From contig JABDLD010000027.1 in the NCBI GenBank assembly GCA_013001885.1, positions 49,455 to 113,454 on the forward strand: 64,000 nucleotides of DNA. Direction: 5' to 3'. Of the stretch, positions 44,203 to 46,742 are shown one piece after another. The position numbers and the translations under genes were made by a program. The notes beneath the pieces are model-generated. The model was not told the origin of the DNA. It did no database searches and saw only the letters and a program-made list of their open reading frames with translations. How positions within the stretch are numbered: position 1 is the stretch's first letter; each line of letters starts with the position of its first letter. Source of the DNA: Lysobacterales bacterium. GTDB lineage: Bacteria; Pseudomonadota; Gammaproteobacteria; Xanthomonadales; SZUA-36.

Positions 44203-45027
44203 TCAATTTCGGGCTCTAAAGTCTAGCCCAGGATTGTTTCGGAAATCTGCTCCAAATCCTCCAATCGCACCACTATTGCAGTTGGCTGAGCGTCCAATCA
44301 CGCTGACATTGTTGAACGCAACAATGGGGGCGGAAAACTCATCAACAATTGTCACTGTGGCAAGCCCGCATCCCACCTCGACTTCCATTGACATTCCTGT
44401 GCCATTGGGCAGGGTAATCGTGATTGCGTCAGTCCCTGTTCCACCACCCGTTATCAGGATTGTTGAACCAGTGCCGCCACCAGTGATTTCGGTATTGGAG
44501 CCAGTACCACCACCTGTGATTTGGGTGCTAGAACCTGTGCCACCACCGGTTATTTGGGTACTGGAACCCGTGCCACCGCCAGTGATTTTTGTACTGGAAC
44601 CCGTGCCACCACCAGTGATTTCGGTGTTGGAACCTGTGCCGCCACCAGTGATTTCAACCCCATTGCCTGAGTTACTCAAAGCAACCTCAGTCAACATAAG
44701 GTTTGCGTAAGATCCGCTCAGCGATGAAACGCCGGAGAACACACTGCCGCCGATAATCCACGAAACAGCTACCTTGTCGTTATTCACGACAATCTGCAGC
44801 GATCCTGCGGGGTCAACAGTTCCCGCCTGTACACTTCCTGCGCACGTCAGGGCAGCCAGCGTGCAGGCTAACAGCCCGCGCCGGATACCGGTTCCTGCTT
44901 TCTCGATTCCGGTTCCTGATTTCTCGATACCCGTACCGGATTTTTCAATTCCAGTTCCGGATTTTTCGATACCAGTGCCGGCCTTCTCAATCCCTGTGCC
45001 GCTCTTTTCTATCATCCAACGAGACAT
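44203..45027 (-). CDS. exported double-repeat protein (EKxGTGI and ITGGGTGSxT repeats), function unknown
   Basis: A 274-aa protein I do not recognise. Residues 7-48 are six tandem copies of a 7-residue unit EK(S/A)GTGI. Then comes a signal-peptide-like stretch, RRGLLACTLAALTCAGSVQA (49-68), so the repeats precede the export signal. A small mature domain (69-124) follows, then seven Gly/Thr-rich repeats of 11 residues (ITGGGTGS, 125-200), and a C-terminal domain with two cysteines (220, 250). Start ATG at 45027 has AGAGGAG seven bases upstream. It is 111 bp downstream of the DUF6502 gene, likely in one operon. Confidence 0.8.
   Translation of the reverse strand: MSRWMIEKSGTGIEKAGTGIEKSGTGIEKSGTGIEKSGTGIEKAGTGIRRGLLACTLAALTCAGSVQAGTVDPAGSLQIVVNNDKVAVSWIIGGSVFSGVSSLSGSYANLMLTEVALSNSGNGVEITGGGTGSNTEITGGGTGSSTKITGGGTGSSTQITGGGTGSSTQITGGGTGSNTEITGGGTGSTILITGGGTGTDAITITLPNGTGMSMEVEVGCGLATVTIVDEFSAPIVAFNNVSVIGRSANCNSGAIGGFGADFRNNPGLDFRARN
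44431..44655 (-). repeat. seven coding repeats of about 33 bp (ITGGGTGS unit)
   Basis: Seven in-frame tandem units encode residues 125-199 of the repeat protein. Units differ from one another at many third codon positions while the peptide stays nearly constant; the sixth unit is one codon shorter. The Gly-Gly-Gly-Thr-Gly core suggests a regular beta-structure. Confidence 0.9.
44884..45009 (-). repeat. six coding repeats of 21 bp (EK(S/A)GTGI unit)
   Basis: Six in-frame tandem 21-bp units encode residues 7-48, ahead of the signal peptide. Synonymous codons vary widely (for example GGC, GGA and GGT for the first Gly) but the peptide changes only Ser to Ala, which points to selection on the peptide and not to recent DNA duplication. 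Confidence 0.92.
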
Positions 45028-45138
45028 TACATTTCTCCTCTTTCTTCAAGTTCAGGCCGTGTGCGGGTAATTAATACCTTCTGCATTTGGCCAGGCTGCT
45101 AAACAACACCTGAGAAAGGTTGAGTACTTTCGTCCCCT

Positions 45139-45996
45139 TTACTCTTCCTCCTCTTCAGGTTCATGGTCACTCCATTGGTACCAACCGATACCGACGGTGA
45201 TTTGACCAGGTTCTTTTGCCGCTTCCTCGAATTCCTCGAGTAACGATTCCCCTTCTTTAATCTGCCTTCCCAAGAGTTCCCTAACTCTCTTGCGAAATTC
45301 TTTGTAATTTTCCGGATCGAGCCGGTAGGTCCAGCGCCCCTGTTGCGGGACCCGGACTTTCGGATCAGAGCTCATATTATGGATGACAGCACTCAGGACT
45401 CTCGACGCCTCAATAAGCCCTACCTCAGTCTGTTTCGCTCTATCTGTTGAGACTGGGGAGTAAAAAATTGAAATGAGCTCAACTTCCTCGACATCAGCGC
45501 GGATCACTTTGATGTTCCCCGATGCCTGCAGGCGACTTATTACAGTCTTGACCGTGATGTTTCTGCCTATTGCTCTGAGTACGAGGGTTTGAAAAGTGCG
45601 GCCTCTCCCAACTATGGGCAGTCGGGCCGGTTTTCCTGTTTTCGGATCGTGGAAAAAAGGGTCACTGTTCCACATGTCAATCAAAGTGTTTTCTGGATTA
45701 ATGCTTTGACTCTGAATGGTCGTGTCTAAGCTCTGTGCTGTCAGAGATGAGACTACCCTTGTGTCCAAACCAGTCATTAAAGCTATGGCGCTTTTGGTAG
45801 GTTTGGAGCCTTCGCGGATGAGCTTTCTCTCGGCTTCTTCGACGTAGATGGCTTTGAGGATTTCTGTCAGAGCGGGCAGGGACACAGAGCCGATCACAAG
45901 GCGGACAACCTTGCGAAAAACACGACTCAAAATATGCGTGATGGCCTTCGCATCATCTTGATGATTTAGATCATTCTGCATAACAACGCCCGGCAT
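45139..45996 (-). CDS. DUF6502 family protein (putative DNA-binding)
   Basis: A 285-aa protein that I match to DUF6502: ITHILSRVFRKVVRLVI, YVEEAERKLIREG, KPTKSAIALMTGLDTRVV (helix-turn-helix-like) and LIDMWNSDPFFHDPKTG with GRTFQTLVLRAIG. Family function is unknown; the HTH-like part suggests regulation. The C-terminus is very acidic (EPEEEEE). The ATG at 45996 has CAGGAG nine bases upstream; a second ATG at codon 6 is possible. It precedes the repeat protein gene on the same strand, and codon use is more AT-rich than in neighbouring housekeeping genes. Confidence 0.75.
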   Translation of the reverse strand: MPGVVMQNDLNHQDDAKAITHILSRVFRKVVRLVIGSVSLPALTEILKAIYVEEAERKLIREGSKPTKSAIALMTGLDTRVVSSLTAQSLDTTIQSQSINPENTLIDMWNSDPFFHDPKTGKPARLPIVGRGRTFQTLVLRAIGRNITVKTVISRLQASGNIKVIRADVEEVELISIFYSPVSTDRAKQTEVGLIEASRVLSAVIHNMSSDPKVRVPQQGRWTYRLDPENYKEFRKRVRELLGRQIKEGESLLEEFEEAAKEPGQITVGIGWYQWSDHEPEEEEE

Positions 45997-46124: not shown

Positions 46125-46374
46125 CGACTTGCCACGTTTTTTTAAACTCTTACGCGTAGTGAAAAAGAGTGCTAAACGGTTCCTTTACTGCGCCACGCAC
46201 ATTCTGTTTACCACCAGGCAACCACAATCCATGTGGAAGCCTGATGTTAACTCGCCGTTGAGCGCCGTGGAACGTCCTTGTTCCTTTCGTGGAATTCCAT
46301 TCCACCCCTGGTGTTCAAATTACTATAGCTGATTTAGATTCCTTCTATATCAGCCTGATTTCCCTATCAATTTA

Positions 46375-46411: not shown

Positions 46412-46699
46412 TTAGTGAATCGAAGGCATCATGCCTTTCAAGCGAGGACGTACTCCGTCCAAATCACAATCCAGGTAATTTTCAATGTCATCGGTGGCGG
46501 TCTTTCTGAAATTCGCCATGATGCTCATAATGGGTTGGCACCCGCTGGCCTCCCTGGCCTTGATTCCGGTGCCACCTTTTTCTACAAGTTCGCTATCTCT
46601 CGAAAATTCCGTTTCAGAAACTGAAATCAACCGGCTTTGTGTCCCCAGCTGACGCGTACCCCATTTAATAACGTCGTTCTTGTTTTCGGCCTTTAGCAT
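46412..46699 (-). CDS. small unknown protein with one EKGGTGI motif
   Basis: A 95-aa protein from the ATG at 46699, which has AAGG seven bases upstream; a longer frame begins at 46735 but would be nearly leaderless given the promoter at 46743-46771. It has no signal peptide or recognised domain. The segment LVEKGGTGIKAR contains one copy of the EKxGTGI unit that is repeated six times at the start of the exported protein 1.4 kb away. Two cysteines are present. It could be a genuine small gene or a gene remnant. Confidence 0.5.
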   Translation of the reverse strand: MLKAENKNDVIKWGTRQLGTQSRLISVSETEFSRDSELVEKGGTGIKAREASGCQPIMSIMANFRKTATDDIENYLDCDLDGVRPRLKGMMPSIH

Positions 46700-46742
46700 A
46701 AGAGCGCCTTTTGAATGGTGGAGTATGTACAACATGGTGCTT

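Follow-up and report, generated by a model that had tools for sequence, protein, structure and literature searches.

In filamentous cyanobacteria, where short peptides set the spacing of nitrogen-fixing cells, the DNA-binding regulator HetR is inhibited by RG[ST]GR peptides. PatS6 (ERGSGR) binds the hood of HetR and frees HetR from DNA (PMC4649674), and PatX is exported and cut outside the cytosol, its HRGTGR peptide binding HetR and abolishing DNA binding (PMC12756182); PatS, PatX and HetN are described as having RG(S/T)GR as their sole common feature (PMC7761841). Here we analysed a stretch of 64,000 nucleotides from a Lysobacterales bacterium (GenBank assembly GCA_013001885.1, contig JABDLD010000027.1, positions 49,455 to 113,454), hereafter the window, which contains a gene for a protein with six EK[S/A]GTGI units ahead of a putative signal peptide (the GTG-array protein) and, beside it, a gene of the DUF6502 family (PF20112). 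Since DUF6502 is predicted to be HetR-like and its neighbours bear a G[ST]G motif, in parallel to HetR/PatX, we hypothesized that the GTG motif is a ligand of DUF6502. DUF6502 would then be a HetR-like switch with the array as its cytosolic ligand, a reading by analogy to which we assign a probability of about 0.55.

Both HetR/PatX and the present pair would unite a DNA-binding regulator, as predicted for DUF6502 from its fold, with an exported protein carrying a G[ST]G peptide (HRGTGR in PatX; PMC12756182, PMC7761841). The two systems differ in that DUF6502 is unmatched by the HetR Pfam models, in the motif, which is E[KR]xGTGI or GIGGTGI and not RG[ST]GR (the pentapeptide is absent from the array protein, which shares the G[ST]G core alone), and in that the motif is here repeated, placed before the signal and encoded beside the regulator. 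PatS and HetN present a second likeness, a short (E)RGSGR in otherwise different proteins that act on one regulator (PMC4649674, PMC7761841), comparable with the GTG motif in the array protein and in a small VEKGGTGI protein of the window, although motif sequence and family are different and no cell differentiation is implied here. In pairs of DUF6502 and DUF5666 (PF20112, PF18914), the same regulator family lies directly upstream of a predicted exported GxGTG protein, but the partner in the window is not a DUF5666 protein and its array precedes the signal. Extended signal-peptide regions of the ESPR type, which form a Pfam family, also have additional conserved residues ahead of a Sec signal; the sequence described here, in contrast, consists of heptad GTG repeats, has no Pfam match and is tied to DUF6502. 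Literature searches, mostly outside subscription papers, found no mention of DUF6502, EKSGTGI, GIGGTGI or "HetR-like", while DUF5666 is mentioned in four papers. Of two papers retrieved for HetR relatives in Proteobacteria, one names Proteobacteria in a reference title only.

The GTG-array protein and its family

The 274-residue open reading frame is intact in the window. EKSGTGI or EKAGTGI is present six times in residues 7-48, a hydrophobic segment with an A-x-A end (VQA, residues 66-68) follows, and seven ITGGGTG units begin at residues 126, 137, 148, 159, 170, 181 and 192. A preliminary description, made from the sequence of the window, had reported these three elements in one gene, as we also observed; the longer unit it gave, ITGGGTGSxT, holds for the core in all seven copies, whereas its SxT end is lost in the last two (STI and TDA). 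The signal was judged from hydropathy, the A-x-A end and the nearly invariant A68.

A search of 5.8 billion proteins, in which scoring was confined to the 7995 candidates with most words in common, retrieved 248 relatives of the array protein at E<=0.01, the best 120 of which were read together with the window protein (121 family proteins). The block is present in 118 of the 121; the other three, which start within the signal or beyond it, are apparently fragments. The number of block copies in these 118 proteins is six in 76, seven in 17, five in 16, four in eight and two in one; with a pattern in which the two glycines are fixed and T, S, F or A is permitted between them, the units have E in 678/689, I in 653/689 and T between the glycines in 679/689. 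Judged from these sequences, the array protein is an unnamed family with a fixed layout, and the placement of a repeat block before a normal-looking export signal, regarded as odd in the preliminary description, is a property of the family.

That description had also known of no family with such a layout, and profile searches with the array protein are in agreement with it. The array protein matches no Pfam family at E<=1, DUF5666 (PF18914) and the CsoS2 M-region (PF12288) included, and no NCBIfam model above its cut-off (the curli CsgB model gave 12.8 bits, with a cut-off of 165); no match was obtained with the defence-system models, nor by sequence against the PDB. The window's own genome has a single copy of the array protein and no DUF5666 match at E<=0.001. 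In the structure model (60 sequences in the alignment; mean pLDDT, predicted local distance difference test, of 58), both repeat blocks are predicted to be disordered, a helix is formed at residues 49-62, and residues 75-119 and 200-245 constitute a beta domain (most ten-residue blocks with pLDDT 72-93) in which the ITGGGTG loop is inserted. The mature part is predicted to be exported, and its domain has no PDB fold match at E<=0.001; C220 is invariant and C250, just beyond the beta domain, nearly invariant. What the preliminary description had missed were the relatives that share the layout and the neighbouring genes.

Within the order, 70 of 398 genomes gave a match at E<=0.001, of which we took as true members the window's family f1 (25 of 39 genomes listed) and f179, the rest being regarded as chance repeats. 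The matches of f2 and f182 (and weak ones of f173, f178 and f181) were multi-frame overlaps or short; they were taken as DNA repeats with a 7-nt period that translate into seven-residue repeats, and were left uncounted. A scan of named genomes, with matches in metagenome-assembled genomes titled Lysobacterales, Xanthomonadales, Gammaproteobacteria and the like, plus Wenzhouxiangella, gave 24 loci, 23 of them real; L057 (Streptomyces) and L002 are chance matches without DUF6502. In L055 and L056, residues 1-43 alone still align (81%), the L056 protein having GSGSG-rich repeats in its mature part, and therefore the block before the signal can persist when the remainder of the protein has been lost. 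A CsoS2_M (PF12288) label is attached to four of the 120 relatives listed (P0003, P0004, P0038 and P0068), probably through VTG-rich repeats. In L037, L041, L046 and L047 the match runs to about 30 bases or less from the end of the contig, so that the GTG repeats probably interrupt draft assemblies and truncate the arrays of these four loci.

DUF6502 and the GTG motif of its neighbours

The gene upstream of the array gene matches DUF6502 with 59.7 bits (E 2.6e-16; cut-off 27 bits), and in all real family loci (23/23) DUF6502 stands directly upstream, in the same orientation, and ends some 140 nt or less from the repeat gene. This holds in Wenzhouxiangella too, a genus in which none of the other neighbours from the window that were tested was detected. 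The relation extends beyond the family: 75 of the 274 genomes in a sample of the class carry DUF6502 at E<=1e-10, and at the 30 best-scoring loci an exported-looking neighbour follows DUF6502 in 28, with GTG in 26 and GSG in two (L072 and L075). Of the remaining two, L069 ends too early and L079 has downstream genes that look like thiS/thiG; the neighbour in L059 reads as frameshifted near the motif. The phylum sample, with DUF6502 in 15 of 349 genomes (the window's own included), provided 17 further loci, and a script identified GTG in 16 of their 17 neighbours; in L130 the script had picked the wrong open reading frame, and a lipoprotein one open reading frame further on carries GTG, by eye. 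As background, GTG is found in the first 140 residues of 25 of 386 six-frame open reading frames of at least 180 residues (window and L034-L056).

Partners outside the window's family belong, by Pfam, to DUF5666 in seven of the nine cases compared (L086 and L144 had no match at E<=0.01), and 51 of the 59 genomes with DUF5666, out of 229, are also among the DUF6502-bearing genomes. The usual motif of these partners is GGIGGTGI, directly after the lipobox or signal, and in L131-L138 it is present in two to five copies (e.g., ERGMGGTGM or DRGIGGTGI). When DUF5666-like lipoproteins were collected by a core pattern, and not by Pfam, a GTG in the linker was observed in 26 of 29 located directly behind DUF6502 and in two of 15 located elsewhere (Fisher 9e-7, a value that overstates independence, as the loci share genera). 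This count excludes the upstream copy of L065, which has no GTG and lacks upstream sequence, and takes the linker of L064 and L088, which is the same, once. The link between the GTG motif and DUF6502 is strong.

Other arrangements were also observed. L060/L111, L064/L088 and L065 have the order DUF5666, DUF6502, DUF5666, with the linker GTG in the downstream copy and none in the upstream copy. In L131:2302-3780, L138:2316-3788 and L135:2-1135, a DUF5666 protein behind DUF6502 has three to five [DE]xGxGGTG or NGIGGTG repeats after its signal. The frame L130:2325-2717, which overlaps the DUF6502 end and precedes the GTG lipoprotein, resembles by eye the second half of another DUF6502, and second DUF6502 copies near the module, with no GTG partner behind, are present at L035:11670-12530 and L038:14359-15231.

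DUF6502 as a candidate HetR-like switch

The best PDB match of the DUF6502 model is HetR (Foldseek E 1.7e-5) and the first seven matches are all HetR, which aligns over the full length, sigma-factor and MarR-type parts aligning locally. A HetR-like fold is thus predicted, and the model makes a moderate case for kinship of DUF6502 with HetR. Sequence profiles weigh against it: 50 DUF6502 members given to Pfam, 49 of which match PF20112, yielded a list of 25 families that includes neither of the HetR models (PF03574 and PF18460), and the HetR_C model matched no DUF6502 locus in 30 DUF6502 genomes. HetR on plasmids, sought to obtain a more varied HetR profile, gave no match, and DUF6502 compared with the PDB by sequence yielded nothing beyond a short alignment with a small regulator (E 0.67). 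At the position of the PatS-contacting E253, the window's DUF6502 has no acidic residue but W222, or Y224 if the alignment is shifted by a short gap; D is present at 224 in 15 of 20 canonical DUF6502 rows, a count for which the alignment register matters. Charge covariation between motif type and hood residues of DUF6502 was suggestive but confounded, with counter-examples, and was dropped as evidence; a weak Cas12a match of DUF6502 among the defence-system models (10.7 bits, E 0.024) was taken as chance.

We propose that the six EK[S/A]GTGI repeats may act as a multi-copy cytosolic ligand of the neighbouring DUF6502, as PatS and PatX act on HetR. The motif would bind DUF6502 directly, probably in its hood-like C-terminal part, binding would release DUF6502 from DNA, and the operon could be subject to feedback through a conserved promoter palindrome, a candidate operator. 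In the other DUF6502 partners read, the motif follows the signal and would leave the cytosol, unless seen before export or returned; the array described here precedes the signal, and therefore should stay cytosolic and be a direct readout of how much of the exported protein is made. Avidity should be increased by the presence of six copies, and the ITGGGTG loop may be the exported counterpart of the array. Of the structural or binding role suggested in the preliminary description, our results lean to binding. More tentatively, and at somewhat less than even odds, DUF6502 and its GTG neighbours may constitute a widespread regulator-ligand module of Pseudomonadota, from which this clade would have made a protein with a ligand array on either side of the inner membrane (six copies cytosolic before the signal peptide and seven exported), the regulator reading both synthesis and export of that one protein; HetR/PatX-style ligand switching would then not be a cyanobacterial speciality.

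Instead of regulating transcription, DUF6502 could serve as an escort or chaperone, holding its exported partner by the GTG motif while that protein is translated and exported. A 4-nt overlap between DUF6502 and the next gene is frequent (15 of 30 class loci and 12 of 17 phylum loci, the latter including L130, where the overlapping frame is not the GTG protein), which suggests coupled translation, and in the partner types read the motif lies close to the signal. However, the DUF6502 model has its best PDB matches among DNA-binding proteins (HetR, sigma-factor and MarR-type), and we consider an escort role unlikely. Another possibility is that the block extends the signal peptide and adjusts targeting, in the manner of the autotransporter ESPR, with no relation to DUF6502, as might be thought from the hydrophobic segment following it within 1-4 residues in 115 of 118 proteins; yet the absence of any Pfam match, when ESPR is itself a Pfam family, makes this improbable. 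In addition, other DUF6502 partners have the motif behind the signal, and a small protein has it with no obvious signal at all, and therefore its position relative to the signal is not the conserved feature.

A more doubtful explanation is that the blocks are ordinary low-complexity Gly/Thr repeats of a surface protein or adhesin, expanding by slippage: the G(x)G[TS]G count in the remainder of the protein varies widely, from 2 to 15, and one relative is named auto-transporter adhesin head in UniRef. Nevertheless, the pre-signal block is constant at five to seven copies in 109 of 118 proteins, the motif tracks adjacency to DUF6502, and the codons of the units have diverged. The EK[S/A]GTGI units of the window gene are 92% alike in residues and 35% in third codon positions (15 pairs), the ITGGGTG cores 100% and 46% (21 pairs), and the pre-signal units of relatives agree on average in 93% of residues and 48% of third positions (range 31-83%, 27 genes). 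Codon choice varies freely inside the repeats while the peptide is kept, and therefore selection appears to act on the peptide and not on the DNA; a DNA- or RNA-level repeat is disfavoured by the same divergence, although the repeats of a few relatives are more alike, up to 83%. Finally, a start of translation after the repeats, which would leave the block unmade and the preliminary description refuted, can be excluded to the extent that sequence allows, since codons 5-81 contain no ATG, GTG or TTG, AGGAG precedes the first ATG and the block is conserved as a peptide in 118 of 121 proteins.

Upstream elements and biological meaning

The coordinates of all features, including two elements upstream of DUF6502, are collected in Table 1.

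Table 1. Features of the GTG-array locus, in window coordinates, listed in the direction of transcription.
Feature	Position	Strand	Basis
Small protein, 107 aa, one VEKGGTGI, upstream of DUF6502	46412..46735	-	Sequence, relatives
EKGGTGI motif, residues 52-58 of small protein	46562..46582	-	Sequence
Imperfect palindrome AACGTGGCAAGTC, overlapping a -35-like position by eye; candidate operator	46126..46138	-	Conserved before DUF6502 in close relatives
DUF6502 gene (PF20112), predicted HetR-like DNA-binding regulator, 111 nt 5' of array gene	45139..45996	-	Pfam and model
DUF6502 C-terminal part, residues 186-275, putative helix-extended-helix-extended order as in HetR hood	45172..45441	-	Inference
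AGGAG, ribosome-binding-like site, 7 nt 5' of array-gene ATG	45035..45039	-	Sequence
GTG-array protein, 274 aa	44203..45027	-	Open reading frame and family search
Six EK[S/A]GTGI units, residues 7-48, ahead of signal; disordered in model, pLDDT about 44	44884..45009	-	Sequence and model
Signal-peptide-like segment RRGLLACTLAALTCAGSVQA, residues 49-68	44824..44883	-	Inferred from hydropathy and nearly invariant A68
Predicted mature beta domain, first half, residues 75-119	44671..44805	-	Structure model
Seven ITGGGTG units, residues 126-202, mostly disordered loop in model	44422..44652	-	Sequence and model
Predicted beta domain, second half, residues 200-245, invariant C220	44293..44430	-	Alignment and model

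The small protein, in which no obvious signal is seen by eye, is a possible single-copy counterpart of the array. VE[KR]xGTGI is found at the same place in L035, L036, L037 and L041, with varying flanks, so that the motif is present in five of 24 loci; 0.004 matches are expected per codon-shuffled region, with a pattern that was set after the motif had been seen. The palindrome has the form AACTTGGCAAGTT in L035 and L036. It is aligned in six loci, a weaker one is present in L038, and none was found at this place in the other 17 of 24 loci; in the window alone, two matches compare with 1.5 expected.

If DUF6502 is a HetR-like switch governed by the motif of its neighbour, a large set of unexplained DUF6502 gene pairs would acquire a function, and comparisons outside cyanobacteria could address how the peptide control of heterocyst patterning arose. 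The pre-signal array would, in that case, represent a new means of retaining a regulatory ligand in the cytosol when the protein that carries it is exported.
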